From Arenimonas composti TR7-09 = DSM 18010 (GTDB lineage Bacteria > Pseudomonadota > Gammaproteobacteria > Xanthomonadales > Xanthomonadaceae), in NCBI RefSeq assembly GCF_000426365.1, contig NZ_AUFF01000003.1, positions 310,001 to 374,000 of the forward strand: DNA of 64,000 bases, read 5' to 3'. Below, piece by piece: positions 55,785 to 62,050 of this stretch. Numbering within the stretch: the stretch's first letter is position 1; each line of letters begins with the position of its first letter. The translations under genes and the position numbers were made by a program. The notes beneath the pieces are model-generated. The model had not been told where the DNA came from and ran no database searches. It saw only the letters and a program-made list of their open reading frames with translations.

Positions 55785-56137
55785 GCACGCCGCCGAACGA
55801 ACTCCGCCGCGCGAAGCGGCGCAAGGTCGACGCGATCGACGTCACCGACACGATGACCGGCCAGGTCGTCGGTCACCTGAGCAACCTCTCCGAGACCGGC
55901 ATGCTGCTGATCCTCGGCGAGAAGCTGGTCAGCGACGCGCTCTACCAGATGCGCTTCGCGCTGCCGCGCCCCGACGGCCAGCTGCGCGAGGTCGAGGTCG
56001 GCGCGCACGAACTGTGGAACGACGAGGCGTCGGCGCCGGGCCAGGTCTGGACCGGCTTCCGCTTCATCGACGTGTCCCCGGAGGACGTCGCCTTCATCCG
56101 CGAGTGGGTGGATGCGCCCGGCAGCCAGTACGTCTAG
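55781..56137 (+). CDS. PilZ-domain protein (c-di-GMP receptor)
   Basis: The 118-residue single-domain PilZ protein has an RAKRR arginine motif (RxxxR, about residues 10-14) and NLSETGML (NxSxxG, about 34-41), the two loops that grip c-di-GMP. Both are intact, so binding is expected. It is translationally coupled to the DUF1631 gene upstream and overlapped by the apbE start downstream (26 nt). It may be the sensor or regulator of the DUF1631 protein. Confidence 0.87.
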   Translation: MSTPPNELRRAKRRKVDAIDVTDTMTGQVVGHLSNLSETGMLLILGEKLVSDALYQMRFALPRPDGQLREVEVGAHELWNDEASAPGQVWTGFRFIDVSPEDVAFIREWVDAPGSQYV

Positions 56138-57197
56138 GCGCCTGATCGCGGCGGCGGCGCTGCTGGCGGCACTGGCCGGGTGCCGGTCGGGGACGCCGGC
56201 ACTGGCCGAGGAGTTCGAGGCCTTCGACGGCCACATCCGCGTCGAGATCCACGGCGACCCGGCGACCGCCCGCGCCGCCTTCGACGAGCTCGCCGCTGCG
56301 CTGCGCCACGACAGCGCCGAATGGCATGCCTGGCAGCCCTCGCCGGTCACCGCGATCAACGCCGCCCTCGCCGCCGGCGAAACCGCGCAGGCGACGCCGT
56401 CGGTCGCTGCGCTGCTGCAGCGGGCGAAGCCGCTCGTCGAAGCCAGCGAGGGCCTGTTCGACCCGGGCGTCGGCGGCCTGATCGCCGCCTGGGGCTTCCA
56501 CACGACCACGTTCCCGGTGGTGTCGCCACCGCCGACCCGGCGCTGGATCGACCGCTGGCTGGCGCAGCGGCCGTCGCTGGCGCAGCTGCAGGTCGAGGGC
56601 TTCGCGCTGCGCAGCGACAACCCGCAGCTGCAGCTCGACTTCGGCGCGATGGCCGAGGGCATGGCGGCCGAACGCGCAGTGGCGATCCTGCGCCGGCACG
56701 GCGTCGCCGAAGCGCGGGTCGCCTTCGGCAGCGGCGACGGCATCGTGCTCGGCCACGGCCCCGGCCGGCCCTGGACGGTGGCGCTGCGCGACCCGTTCGG
56801 CGGCACCCTCGGCGAGGCGATGCTGGAGGACGGCGAGGCGATCTTCAGCACCGGGAATTTCAGCAAGTTCCGCCCCTCCGCGAGCGGCACCCGCTGGCCG
56901 CACATTCTCGACCCGCGCACCGGCCACCCGGCGCGCGGCGCGGCGGCGGTCGTCGTGATCGACAACGACCCGGTGCGCGCCGATGCCGCCGCCACCGCGC
57001 TCTACGTCGCCGGGCCCTCGGGCTTCGAGGCCACGGCACGGGCGATGCGGGTCGGTTGTGCGCTGCTGCTCACCGACGAGAACGAAATCCTCGTCACCGC
57101 CGCGCTGGTCCCGCGCCTTCGCCTCCAGCGCGATCCCGTCCCCCTCGGGCCCCCGATCGACCTCGGACCTTCATGCTCCGCTGTGGCCTCGCGCTGA
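56112..57197 (+). CDS. apbE: FAD:protein FMN transferase (ApbE family), lipoprotein
   Basis: The 361-residue protein has a lipoprotein signal (LAALAGC, Cys near residue 23), so it sits on the periplasmic side. Family pieces are EASEGLFDPGVGGLIAAWGF, LDFGAMAEGMAAERAV, HILDPRTGHPARG and IDNDPVRADAAATALY with the metal-binding Asp. ApbE links FMN to Thr in Nqr/Rnf and other flavoproteins. The Gly-Asp-Gly region (FGSGDGIVLG) replaces the usual Gly-Asn form, a mild divergence. The start overlaps the PilZ gene by 26 nt; a later in-frame start is possible but would lose the lipobox. Confidence 0.85.
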   Translation: MRPAASTSRRLIAAAALLAALAGCRSGTPALAEEFEAFDGHIRVEIHGDPATARAAFDELAAALRHDSAEWHAWQPSPVTAINAALAAGETAQATPSVAALLQRAKPLVEASEGLFDPGVGGLIAAWGFHTTTFPVVSPPPTRRWIDRWLAQRPSLAQLQVEGFALRSDNPQLQLDFGAMAEGMAAERAVAILRRHGVAEARVAFGSGDGIVLGHGPGRPWTVALRDPFGGTLGEAMLEDGEAIFSTGNFSKFRPSASGTRWPHILDPRTGHPARGAAAVVVIDNDPVRADAAATALYVAGPSGFEATARAMRVGCALLLTDENEILVTAALVPRLRLQRDPVPLGPPIDLGPSCSAVASR

Positions 57198-57224
57198 TTC
57201 TTCCTCGCTGGCGGACGGCACCGC

Positions 57225-57287
57225 GCTGAAGGGGTGCCCCGCGCCTCACACAAGGCCTTTACGTTCGGCGCGGGGCACCCCTTCAGC
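57225..57287 (+). ncRNA. Perfect 21-bp hairpin of the left module
   Basis: Arms 57225-57245 and 57267-57287 are perfect complements with a 21-nt loop, starting 28 nt after the apbE stop. It could act as a terminator or 3'-end stabiliser. Confidence 0.7.
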
Positions 57288-57430
57288 ACGCCGCCGCCGC
57301 GACGGGGTCATCGCGGTTCCGCAGACGGTTCTTCGGCGCGCGGGCCACGCCGGCGGGTGCGTTTCCGCCGCGTTCGCGGACAGGCGCCATTCGCGGCGAC
57401 CGGCGACAACGCGTCGCACCGATCTACCGA

Positions 57431-57477
57431 TCCGGGCGCGCACCTGAAGTGCGCAGGTTCTGCCTGCGTGGTGGCCG
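57431..57477 (+). repeat. 47-nt invariant core, left copy
   Basis: Identical over 47 nt to the reverse complement of 57734-57780, although the remainder of the modules has diverged. It begins TCCGGGCGCG and ends GTGGCCG. Confidence 0.85.
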
Positions 57478-57733
57478 CGGGAAATCGGCTGCGGAATTCG
57501 GCGGCGCCGGACGAGGCGGGGTGGACGCGAAGATAAGAGCGAAAGCGGGCCGATGCTTCTGCGCGTCGCGTATGAGTAGCGAAGCCATACGCGCGCGGAC
57601 AGCCTGCGCTCGAGCGGCAAACGAAACGCCGTCGCAGAACCGCGATTTCGCGGTCCACGGCATGCGCTTTCGATGAGGTCGCGGTCACGGCGGCGTTATG
57701 GCCGCAGCGCCACCACTCGCATCCGGTTTCCCA

Positions 57734-57780
57734 CGGCCACCACGCAGGCAGAACCTGCGCACTTCAGGTGCGCGCCCGGA
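57734..57780 (-). repeat. 47-nt invariant core, right copy
   Basis: The reverse complement of 57431-57477 without mismatch. It lies at the inner end of the right module. Confidence 0.85.
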
Positions 57781-57920
57781 ACGGCCGCTCGGATCGCGCA
57801 CACGTGTCCGGTCGCCACGCACGGGGCGTGTCCGCAGACGCGCAGGCAACGCACCCGCCGCCGTCGCGCGCGCGCCGAGGGCGCGGACTGCGGAACCGCG
57901 ACGAATCCGTCGCGGCGGCG

Positions 57921-57991
57921 CCGCGCTGAAGGCAGGCCCCGCGCCGAACTTGAAAGCTGTGTGTGAGGCGCGGGGCCTGCCTTCAGCGCGG
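57921..57991 (-). ncRNA. Perfect 25-bp hairpin of the right module
   Basis: Arms 57921-57945 and 57967-57991 are perfect complements with a 21-nt loop, starting 44 nt after the stop of the GGDEF-EAL gene on the minus strand. Three base pairs differ from the left hairpin, each with a matching change in the other arm. Confidence 0.7.
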
Positions 57992-58035
57992 TGCCGACCG
58001 CCGACCACCGAACGCCGACCGCCGACCCGGAACAG

Positions 58036-60684
58036 TCACGGCCCGAAGCACGCCGCCCGTTCCGGTTTGTGGATGGCGAAGCCCTGGGCGTAGTCGACGG
58101 AGAGCCCGCGGAGCAGGTCGCGGGCCTTGTCGTCGGCGACCCACTCGGCGATGACCTGCAGCCCCAGCTGGTGACCGATGTCGGTGACCGCGCGCACGAT
58201 CGAATAGCTGACCGGATCGTTCTCGAGGTTGCGGATGAAGCTGCCGTCGATCTTCAGGTAGTCGACCGGCAGGTTCTTCAGATAGCCGAAGGAGGCCATG
58301 CCCGAGCCGAAGTCGTCGAGCGAGAACCGGCAGCCGGCGCCGCGCAGGCGCTGCATGAAGGCGATCGCGCGGGTCATGTTGCTGACCGCCGCGGTCTCGG
58401 TGATCTCGAAGCAGATGCGGCTCGGCGGCACGTCGTATTCCTCGAGCCGCTGCAGCACGAAGTCGGCGAAGCTGTCGTCCTCGAAGGTCGGGCCCGACAG
58501 GTTGATCGCGCACAGCCGCGGCGGCTTGCCGGAAGCATGCAGGCGGCCGAAGTTCGCGAGCGTGGTGTCGACGACCCAGCGGTCGAGCAGCGGCATCAGG
58601 CCGAAGCGTTCGGCGGCCGGGATGAACGCGCCCGGCGGCACCATCGCGCCGGCCTCGTCGCGCATGCGGATCAGCATCTCCATGTGCACGCCGTCGGCGC
58701 CCTCGCGATGCCACAGCGGCGCGAGTTCCTGGTAATGCAGTTCGAAGCGGCCCTCTGACAGCGCCTCGCGCACCTTGCCGGCCCACTCCATCTCGCTGCG
58801 CCGGCGCGCGGTCTCGGAATCGGTATCGGAGAACACGTGCACGCGGTTGCGGCCGCGCTCCTTCGCCATGTAGCAGGCGGTGTCGGCCTGGGCGAGCACC
58901 TTGCGCAGGCTCAGGCCGGGGCCGTCGAGCAGCACGACGCCGACGCTGGCGGTGGTCGTGTAGTTGCGTTCCTCCCAGCCGAACACGAAGCCGTCGATCT
59001 CGACGCGGATGCGTTCGGCCAGCGCGGTCGCGCCCTCGGCGTCGATCGCCGGCACCAGCACCGCGAATTCGTCGCCACCGAGACGGGCGAGCGTCGCCGA
59101 CTCCGGCAGCACGCCGGTGATGATCGAGCCCAGCTGCGCCAGCAGCTGGTCGCCGGCGTAGTGGCCGGAGGTGTCGTTGACGAGCTTGAACTGGTCGAGG
59201 TCGAGGTAGATCAGTGCCCCCGGCGCGGCGCCGGCGTCGAGCGCGACGATCGCGCGGTGCAACCGGCGCTCGAACTCGCGCCGGTTCTCGAGCCCGGTCA
59301 GCACGTCGTGGCTCGACTGCCAACTGAGTTCCTCGCTGAGCACGCGCAGCTCGGTGGTGTCGTTGGCGACCGCGAGCAGGTGCGGGCGGCCGTCGAACTC
59401 GATGCGGGTCACCGACAGCGTCGCCCAGAACGGATCGGCGCCACCGCTGCCGCGCAGCGCGGCACTCTCGTTGACGAGGTCGCCGTCACCGCTGCCGAGC
59501 GCGCGCAGGCGTTCGCGCAGGTCGGCGTCCTCGACGATGTCGGCGAGCACGAGCTCGTCGCCGGTGTCGATCGCGAACCGGTCGCGGCAGGCCTGGTTCG
59601 CATACACCACGCGGCCGCTGGCGCTGTCGGCCAGCAGCACCAGCGCCGGCAGCAGGTCGTTGAGCGCGCGGAAACGCTCCTCGCTCTCGCGGAAGCGCGC
59701 CGACATGCCCTCGGCCAGGGCGAGCGCGCGCTGGCGGGTGCCGGCCATCGACCACACCAGCGCCGCGAGCAGGCCACTGCCGAGCAGGCCGAGCGCGAAG
59801 GTCAGCAGCGGCGACCAGCGGGTGTCGCCGCTGGCCAGGCGCGGCCAGGCCTCGATCCGCCAGTTGCGGGTGCCGTAGGCGATCTCGCGCACGAAAACCG
59901 TGCCGTCGTGATCGTGGTCGCCGACGTCCTCGCCGAACAGCACTTTCGGCGCCGCCTCGGTGACGTCGGTCACCCGCAGGTCGAAGGTCTCGCGGCTCTC
60001 GTCCGGCAGCGCGCCGGCGATCAGCGTGCTGACCCGGAACGACACGGCCAGCGAACCGATCTCGCGCGCCCGGCGCTCGCCGACGTCGCGCGGCAGCAGG
60101 CCGGCCGAGAACACCGGCAGCCGGATCGTGATGCCGTCGCGCGGGCCGGGCGCGTCGGCCCGCTGCACGAGGGCGAACGGCGCCGACATCACCGGGCGGT
60201 CGGCGTCGCGCGCGAACAGTGCCGCGGCCAGGTTCGCCGGCTGCCGGGCGACGTCGAAGCCGCGCAGCGATTCGTTTCCGGAGCGCGGTTCGAGCAACAC
60301 CGTCGGGTAATGCGGTTCGCCGTCTTCGCCGACTTGGCGGACCGCGTAGGCGACCGCCTGCAGGCTCGGGAACAGGTCGCGCGGGCGCAGGTTGGCGTAC
60401 ATCGCGCCGAACTCGTCCTCGGTGACGTCGTCGGAGGACAGGAACAGCGCCTGCAGCGAGCGCACCAGCAGACCGCAGGTTTCCAGCTGCGCGGCGAGCG
60501 CGTCGAAGGTGCGCTCGGCGACACGTTCCAGGCGCGCGTGCTCCTCGCGTTCGAGCGAGCGCGCGTGCAGGCCCGTGAGCACCGTGCTGAGCACCAGGCC
60601 CAGGGCGAACGCGACCGCGGCCCAGACCCACGCGGGCCAGCCGAGGAATCCGCGTTGTAGGCGCTGGTCGTGCTGCGGGGACAT
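58036..60684 (-). CDS. Membrane CHASE-GGDEF-EAL c-di-GMP signalling protein
   Basis: The 882-residue protein has a TM helix (about residues 17-38), a periplasmic CHASE-type sensor (about 50-290), a second TM (about 305-325) and a PAS-like segment (about 345-470). The GGDEF domain has the intact GGDEF motif near residue 536. The EAL domain reads HMEMLIRM in place of EAL (Glu669 kept) and has INLSGPTF, FEITETA, LDDFGSGM and LKIDGSF. The cyclase motif is complete. The phosphodiesterase keeps most metal residues with an EML variant like the EVLLRM seen in many hybrids, so activity is likely but unproven. The start at 60684 begins the TM segment; the upstream extension is unsupported. Confidence 0.88.
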   Translation of the reverse strand: MSPQHDQRLQRGFLGWPAWVWAAVAFALGLVLSTVLTGLHARSLEREEHARLERVAERTFDALAAQLETCGLLVRSLQALFLSSDDVTEDEFGAMYANLRPRDLFPSLQAVAYAVRQVGEDGEPHYPTVLLEPRSGNESLRGFDVARQPANLAAALFARDADRPVMSAPFALVQRADAPGPRDGITIRLPVFSAGLLPRDVGERRAREIGSLAVSFRVSTLIAGALPDESRETFDLRVTDVTEAAPKVLFGEDVGDHDHDGTVFVREIAYGTRNWRIEAWPRLASGDTRWSPLLTFALGLLGSGLLAALVWSMAGTRQRALALAEGMSARFRESEERFRALNDLLPALVLLADSASGRVVYANQACRDRFAIDTGDELVLADIVEDADLRERLRALGSGDGDLVNESAALRGSGGADPFWATLSVTRIEFDGRPHLLAVANDTTELRVLSEELSWQSSHDVLTGLENRREFERRLHRAIVALDAGAAPGALIYLDLDQFKLVNDTSGHYAGDQLLAQLGSIITGVLPESATLARLGGDEFAVLVPAIDAEGATALAERIRVEIDGFVFGWEERNYTTTASVGVVLLDGPGLSLRKVLAQADTACYMAKERGRNRVHVFSDTDSETARRRSEMEWAGKVREALSEGRFELHYQELAPLWHREGADGVHMEMLIRMRDEAGAMVPPGAFIPAAERFGLMPLLDRWVVDTTLANFGRLHASGKPPRLCAINLSGPTFEDDSFADFVLQRLEEYDVPPSRICFEITETAAVSNMTRAIAFMQRLRGAGCRFSLDDFGSGMASFGYLKNLPVDYLKIDGSFIRNLENDPVSYSIVRAVTDIGHQLGLQVIAEWVADDKARDLLRGLSVDYAQGFAIHKPERAACFGP

Positions 60685-60745
60685 GCGTTCTCTGCGCGGG
60701 GGGAGGGGTTTGCGGCAGAATCCGGACTTTCCGCGGAAGCTGCCG

Positions 60746-62050
60746 ATGAACGCCGAAACCAGTCTATATCGCGCCCACCTCGACACGATCAAGGCGCGCG
60801 CCGACGCGGCGCTGCAAAAAGGGGGATTCGATCACCTTCTGATCGCCTCCGGCGTGGAGAAATTCGAGTTTCTCGACGACCGGCCCTATCCCTTCCGCCC
60901 GAATCCGCAGTTCAAGGCCTGGCTGCCGCTGACGCGGCATCCGCAGTGCTGGATCGCCTACACGCCGGGACGCAAGCCGGTACTGGTGTATTTCCAGCCG
61001 GATGACTATTGGCACGTGCCGCCGAGCCCGCCTTCGGGTGTGTGGGTCGACGAATTCGACATCCGCGTCGTCAGCGATCCTGCGCAGGTCGCTCAGCACT
61101 TGCCCGCGAACGGACGCGCGGCGATCATCGGTGAAGCCGATGCCGCGGTGCCGGGTTTCGCGCCGAACGATCCGAGAACCGTCATCGACTACCTGCACTA
61201 CCAGCGCGCGTACAAGACGGCCTGGGAGCTCGAGCGCATGCGTGCCGCGCAGCGCCGCGCGGTGCCCGGCCACCTCGCCGCACGCGAAGCCTTCCTCGCC
61301 GGCGCCTCCGAGATGGCCATCCACGCGGAGTACCTGCGCGCGACCGGCCATACCGATCTCGACCTGCCTTACACCAACATCGTCTGCCTCAATGAACACG
61401 CGGCGGTGCTGCACTACCAGTACAAGGACGCCGCGGCGCCGACGCGCTCGCGCACGCTGCTGATCGACGCCGGCGCCGAGGTCGACGGCTACAACGCCGA
61501 CATCACCCGCACCTGGGGCGACGGCGACGAACGCTTCGAGCGCCTTGTCGCCGCGGTCGACGCCGAGCAGCAGGCGCTCTGCGGCCTGGTCCGCGCCGGC
61601 ACCGACTACCGCGAGCTGCATCTGCAGGCGCATCTGCGCCTCGGCAATGTGCTGCGCACGCTGGGCGTCGTCGACATGGATCCGGGCGACATGCTCGCGA
61701 CCGGCGTCACGTCGGTGTTCTTCCCGCACGGCCTCGGCCACCCGATCGGTCTGCAGGTGCACGACGTCGCCGGTTTCCAGGACGAGGACGGCCAGCTGAT
61801 CCCGCGCCCCGAGGGCCACCCCTACCTGCGCATGACCCGCACGCTGGCACCCGGCATGGTGGTGACGATCGAGCCCGGCCTGTACTTCATCCCGATGCTG
61901 CTCGCGCAGCTGCGCGAAACGCCGCAGGCGAAACACGTCGACTGGGACCTCGTCGAGCACTTCCTGCCTTTCGGCGGCGTGCGCATCGAGGACGAGGTGC
62001 ATTGCACCGACGGCGAACCCGAAAACCTCACCCGCGACGCCTTCGCCTGA
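60746..62050 (+). CDS. pepQ: Xaa-Pro dipeptidase
   Basis: The 434-residue cytoplasmic M24B metallopeptidase cleaves dipeptides with C-terminal proline. The metal ligands of the pita-bread fold are visible: LIDAGAEVDGYNADITRTW, FFPHGLGHPIGLQVHDVAG, the glutamate in TIEPGLYF and the last in GGVRIEDEVH. Length fits PepQ (E. coli about 443). The ATG at 60746 is used because the N-terminal domain starts there. It is divergent from the GGDEF-EAL gene. Confidence 0.93.
   Translation: MNAETSLYRAHLDTIKARADAALQKGGFDHLLIASGVEKFEFLDDRPYPFRPNPQFKAWLPLTRHPQCWIAYTPGRKPVLVYFQPDDYWHVPPSPPSGVWVDEFDIRVVSDPAQVAQHLPANGRAAIIGEADAAVPGFAPNDPRTVIDYLHYQRAYKTAWELERMRAAQRRAVPGHLAAREAFLAGASEMAIHAEYLRATGHTDLDLPYTNIVCLNEHAAVLHYQYKDAAAPTRSRTLLIDAGAEVDGYNADITRTWGDGDERFERLVAAVDAEQQALCGLVRAGTDYRELHLQAHLRLGNVLRTLGVVDMDPGDMLATGVTSVFFPHGLGHPIGLQVHDVAGFQDEDGQLIPRPEGHPYLRMTRTLAPGMVVTIEPGLYFIPMLLAQLRETPQAKHVDWDLVEHFLPFGGVRIEDEVHCTDGEPENLTRDAFA

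Follow-up and report, generated by a model that had tools for sequence, protein, structure and literature searches.

The convergent gap between apbE and a CHASE-GGDEF-EAL gene of Arenimonas composti holds an inverted-repeat element of some 790 nt. It belongs to a real, Arenimonas-specific family that is undescribed as far as could be searched. We lean toward the view that this family is a non-coding, terminator-associated mobile element of the genus, with hairpin ends under selection as a folded single strand. A literature search, limited to openly licensed papers, found no paper on the element.

In the window (the whole stretch of 64,000 nt that was analyzed), apbE (56112-57197, plus strand; ApbE family, PF02424, E 1.3e-49) and the CHASE-GGDEF-EAL gene (58036-60792, minus strand; PF00563, PF00990 and PF03924) are separated by 838 nt between their stop codons (57198-58035), and this gap corresponds to inserted DNA. 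The outer limits of the palindrome lie at approximately 57210 and 58002, and its outermost stretches (57210-57324 and 57888-58002) are 85% complementary. A preliminary description had recognized two head-out inverted copies of one module here, and its account of their form was accurate: the left half-element (57212-57493, plus strand) and the right half-element (57718-58000, minus strand), each read from its outer end inward, are 82% identical, and the two terminal hairpins lie exactly where they had been placed. The left one (57225-57287) has a perfect 21-bp stem and the loop TCACACAAGGCCTTTACGTTC (57246-57266); the right one (57921-57991) has a perfect 25-bp stem and the loop GAACTTGAAAGCTGTGTGTGA (57946-57966). 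Both loops are 21 nt long, and no other stem of at least 16 bp with a loop of 10 to 40 nt occurs in the window.

Is each copy the unit, or only part of one? The copies are continued by an inner long-range stem, whose left arm (57419-57493) pairs with its right arm (57718-57792) at 91% complementarity; in alignments, these arms differ between loci and match within a locus. We conclude that the unit is the whole ~790-nt element and that both copies are its parts. Inside the half-element there is also a small hairpin, seen in the compensated forms GCGTCC-GAAG-GGACGC, GCGTTC-AGGG-GAACGC and GTGTCC-GAAG-GGACAC. Open reading frames within the window element lacked a Pfam match and were rejected as spurious, and no gene-like reading frame lies inside any of the elements except for overlaps at their edges. 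No tRNA or tmRNA was found, and nothing scored above the Rfam gathering score; the sub-threshold matches were mostly microRNA-hairpin look-alikes.

The genes apbE and EAL abut or overlap in 14 congeners, with gaps of -17 to +64 nt, and only in the A. composti genome is the gap 838 nt. Since the gap lacks the module in these relatives, comparison of the sequences indicates that the whole element is a lineage-specific insertion, confined to this species.

How widely is the family distributed? Two covariance models, R1 and R3, were run across related genomes. The R3 hairpin is present in 13 of 27 Arenimonas genomes, and hence the paired copies are not a mere recent duplication. Among 297 genomes of the bacterial family, R3 matched 11, nine of them Arenimonas and two weak ones outside the genus. 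Neither weak match survived inspection: the one in G273 is a different palindrome, and G103 has no hairpin. The palindrome in G273, a genome of another genus of the family, is the unrelated GTCATCCCCGCGCAGGCGGGGATC with a 24-nt loop (L133, contig C1), and a second one there is TGTAGGAGCGACGCGAGTCGCGA. A BLAST search with the whole element against 395 genomes of the bacterial family recovered 11 Arenimonas genomes and one marginal other. In another BLAST search, a match in G020 (L032) proved to be coding sequence and was discarded. In a pattern scan of 84,980 species, 15 of the 17 matching stretches were from Arenimonas and the other two from metagenome bins. The hairpin specific to Arenimonas is present in both bins (L138 and L150), whose labels are Rhizobium and Burkholderiales; in the Rhizobium case, a label is probably wrong. 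The plasmid, phage and viral-contig collections yielded no relatives of the element. The highest count, ten head-out pairs and one solo hairpin, was reached in a closed genome (G003).

Complete elements are palindromes of 600 to 870 nt with the ends TGGCGCCG...CGGCGCCA. Two further type I elements are present in the genome that contains the window: one at C2:11520-12248 and another, with a single hairpin, on C4. It also holds a type II subfamily, with another loop and a related core, at no fewer than eight loci; copy numbers in this genome rest on searches. Type II (L039:856-1689; L164, on C12, in the suhB-secF gap; L220 to L227) has a bulged stem and a loop containing GCGTGGCTCGG, and several of its copies lie at contig ends. 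A type II element apparently occupies the suhB-secF gap of this genome, the gap in which other species have type I elements.

Three base pairs had been reported to differ between the two window stems, all of them compensated, and this was confirmed. That such covariation should hold when more copies were added had been set beforehand, and it does hold in about 60 further hairpins. Among the four type I hairpins of the window element and the next element of the same genome, 14 of 26 pairs have changed in both partners and no pair in just one, a result reached by 0 of 500 shuffles; slid controls gave 0 to 2 such pairs. In five other type I hairpins, 15 of 26 pairs have changed in this two-sided way; of the changed cells, 23 are two-sided and 0 one-sided. 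Stem sequence thus differs almost freely between type I copies while pairing is kept. Across 60 distinct hairpins, 97% of positions are paired, yet every stem position is variable; the loops are conserved within subfamilies.

The few mismatches that do occur are distributed very unevenly. We scored them on each half read from its outer end inward. Over the first 24 pairs from the loop, the 60 hairpins contain 1,403 Watson-Crick pairs, 24 A.C, 1 G.T and 12 others (a 26-pair count was also made). The ratio of A.C to G.T is 18 to 1 when one event is counted per genome, position and type (p = 8e-5), and 12 to 1 when events are collapsed by position and type (p = 0.003). An A.C on one strand is a G.U on the other. 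The simplest reading of this one-sidedness is that selection acts on a folded single strand that reads from the center outward; for the window element, the family-wide asymmetry would make this the minus strand at the left hairpin and the plus strand at the right one. The preliminary description had the flanking genes read into the structured strand, and that direction must be reversed: A.C falls on the gene-read strand and G.U on the opposite one, 24 to 1, and the constrained strand is opposite to flanking-gene transcripts that enter the element. In the interior, A exceeds T and C exceeds G on the outward strand, opposite to the traces that excess C-to-T mutation would leave there. Consensus folding of whole halves gave no clear strand preference because G.U pairs are freely accepted in it; for this reason we relied on the mismatch count in the fixed stem.

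Where do the elements reside? By our reading of the coding scores of an iterated codon model, the genes on either side of the 29 complete elements are convergent in 13 cases, tandem in 14 and divergent in 2, and at least one gene end faces the element in 27 of the 29. An intrinsic terminator reading toward the element was found at 18 of 56 ends and one reading away at 5; shuffles gave 0.16. A second, slightly different set had a terminator at 24 of 66 ends, and for 13 of these 24 the distance was 18 to 25 nt from the element edge. The window locus has no terminator outside the element. In one species group, a conserved block (TTCTTCTCCCAAGT) that occurs mainly beside elements lies between terminator and hairpin, and the true outer limit of the element may therefore extend as far as the terminator. 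At L109, L119, L121, L122, L124, L130 and L131, the block GGTTCTTCTCCCAAGTNNGGGA is conserved between the T-run of the terminator and the element, outside the hairpins; it is found mainly beside elements in G002, G011, G018 and G022.

The suhB-secF gap offers both empty and filled sites. It measures 59 to 95 nt, mostly with a single shared terminator and with no element, in ten genomes (G001, G005, G008, G013, G014, G016, G017, G018, G021 and G024) and 834 to 949 nt in four (G000, G003, G004 and G020); the left end in G000 resembles the type II hairpin. In G023, the gap is 235 nt and holds a solo hairpin with an element terminus on each side. Such solo hairpins between both termini, reminiscent of solo LTRs, were seen at L159:2307-2547 (G023) and L105:1980-2085 (G003), and represent internal deletions or else a minimal mobile form. 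Beside the element at L172 (G003:C1:2871890-2872522), suhB has an in-frame TGA; this closed genome has an estimated completeness of 86%, and the TGA may be a sequencing error.

Comparison of flanking proteins showed that several loci are occupied in more than one species. At such shared loci, an element usually resembles those elsewhere in its own genome or species pair more than its counterparts at the locus, which suggests either recurrent insertion at preferred sites or homogenization by gene conversion. The orthologous filled sites could be old shared insertions homogenized in this way, a point that counts against our preferred explanation. Four copies in G020 have near-identical ends (TGGCGCCGTCGTCACCG...CGACGGCGCCA), unrelated flanks and diverged interiors; in one of them, the central segment is flipped. 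No target-site duplication is visible in these four copies. We found no parent transposon with the same ends, and many copies lie at contig ends.

Perhaps a tyrosine (HUH) transposase, supplied in trans, recognizes the hairpin ends as single-stranded DNA, with no RNA involved, as in REPINs or TIRtrons? An inverted palindrome doublet located 3' of genes recalls both REPINs and the dispersed TIR families of Stenotrophomonas, tolerance of G.T on one strand also fits single-stranded DNA, and Y1_Tnp genes are common in Arenimonas: 21 of the 27 genomes have RAYT-type tyrosine transposases (PF01797). However, some of these genomes lack the element, and element ends flank none of the 12 Y1_Tnp loci that we read (the other loci were judged by coordinates only). 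Of the listed transposases, none is closer than about 5 kb to any listed element, and one apparent transposase neighbor (L232) turned out to be coding sequence. Moreover, one end of the element is constrained on one strand and the other end on the opposite strand, unlike IS200/IS605, in which both ends are read on one strand. A link to the tyrosine transposases was thus unsupported at the loci read, and we regard this explanation as rather unlikely.

The suggestion that the copies are a structured RNA module of the flanking genes' 3' ends, each gene reading inward, came with the preliminary description. It agrees with stems that covary and with the 27 of 29 elements at a gene's 3' end, but the mismatch asymmetry favors the opposite strand, apbE and the EAL gene lie side by side without the module in 14 related species, and many elements in relatives lie beyond the terminators of other genes. 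We consider it very improbable. A passive palindrome, in which template switching or cruciform-guided correction of one arm by the other produces the compensation and the fold has no function, would explain why wobble intermediates are very rare, why the whole element is palindromic and, through internal recombination, the flipped central segment. Yet correction at the DNA level should be blind to strand, and the mismatches are 24 to 1; loops, too, are kept within subfamilies while stems vary. As a full account, we think this unlikely. Wobbles make up just 25 of 1,440 pairs in the terminal stems, a rarity that selection on RNA alone would not predict, so cruciform-guided, arm-to-arm repair of DNA may nevertheless contribute to the near-perfect stems.

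A terminator-associated mobile element with hairpin ends selected as a folded single strand is the explanation to which we give the most weight. Such an element, having no enzyme of its own, would presumably be moved in trans. It settles beside the 3' ends of genes, in many cases a short way beyond an intrinsic terminator. Its ends are hairpins of 20 to 35 bp with a subfamily-specific loop, and they would be conserved as a folded strand running from the center outward, most probably as RNA, if not as a single-stranded DNA intermediate. Recognition, presumably by a protein, may rely on shape and loop and not on stem sequence, and the halves may stay alike through copying of the element as a unit together with internal recombination. 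More speculatively, each half might be a structured non-coding RNA gene of about 300 to 400 nt, transcribed from the center outward and ending in the terminal hairpin, and the paired divergent RNAs might guide or template insertion behind intrinsic terminators. We hold this version only tentatively; if true, it would describe a new kind of RNA-based, terminator-targeting mobile element in bacteria.

The family is limited to one genus, its ends are precise, sister species offer both filled and empty sites, and about 60 of its hairpins covary, which makes it a clean system for the spread of non-coding elements. It lets one ask why elements settle behind terminators and whether RNA function or DNA repair maintains paired stems that change freely. 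The strand test of A.C against G.T needs nothing but sequence to separate these two, and other palindromic repeats can be examined in the same way.

Among the nearest known systems, REPINs are extragenic, non-coding pairs of inverted palindromes, mostly 3' of genes and copied as a unit (PMC3116915, PMC3733652). The Arenimonas element shares this inverted pair in one unit, its extragenic position, mostly 3' of genes, and its lack of coding capacity; every complete element has a plus and then a minus hairpin. However, REPs are 20 to 40 bp, with stems of 5 to 13 bp and a GTAG or CGTC tag, and occur in high copy number, whereas our elements have stems of about 20 to 35 bp in units of 600 to 870 nt and reach few to about ten copies with no transposase neighbor found; CGTC occurs at only some ends, about 9 nt from the stem. 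TIRYTs have dispersed TIR families, for example in Stenotrophomonas maltophilia of the same bacterial family, that are self-complementary TIR dimers away from the transposase gene (PMC3733652). In contrast, the 12 loci read yielded no RAYT or TIRYT gene flanked by element ends, and the halves here are about 300 to 400 nt with several small hairpins. Like the MITEs ERIC, NEMIS, YPAL and bcr1, which are thought to act partly as RNA (PMC2267715, PMC3733652, PMC6542083), the element is taxon-restricted, non-coding, palindromic and intergenic, and it has terminal inverted repeats and dispersed copies with unrelated flanks. MITEs are 70 to 300 bp with TIRs of 15 to 30 bp, whereas the Arenimonas element is longer and has a hairpin inside each end whose stem sequence can vary freely. 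Intrinsic terminators are insertion sites of group IIC introns (PMC4424553), and a subset of our ends likewise lies at one, but the element has neither an intron ribozyme (by Rfam) nor a reverse transcriptase. What distinguishes the family from REPINs, TIRYT TIRs and MITEs is the size of the element, its long hairpin ends, a constraint that is specific to one strand and the lack of any linked transposase.
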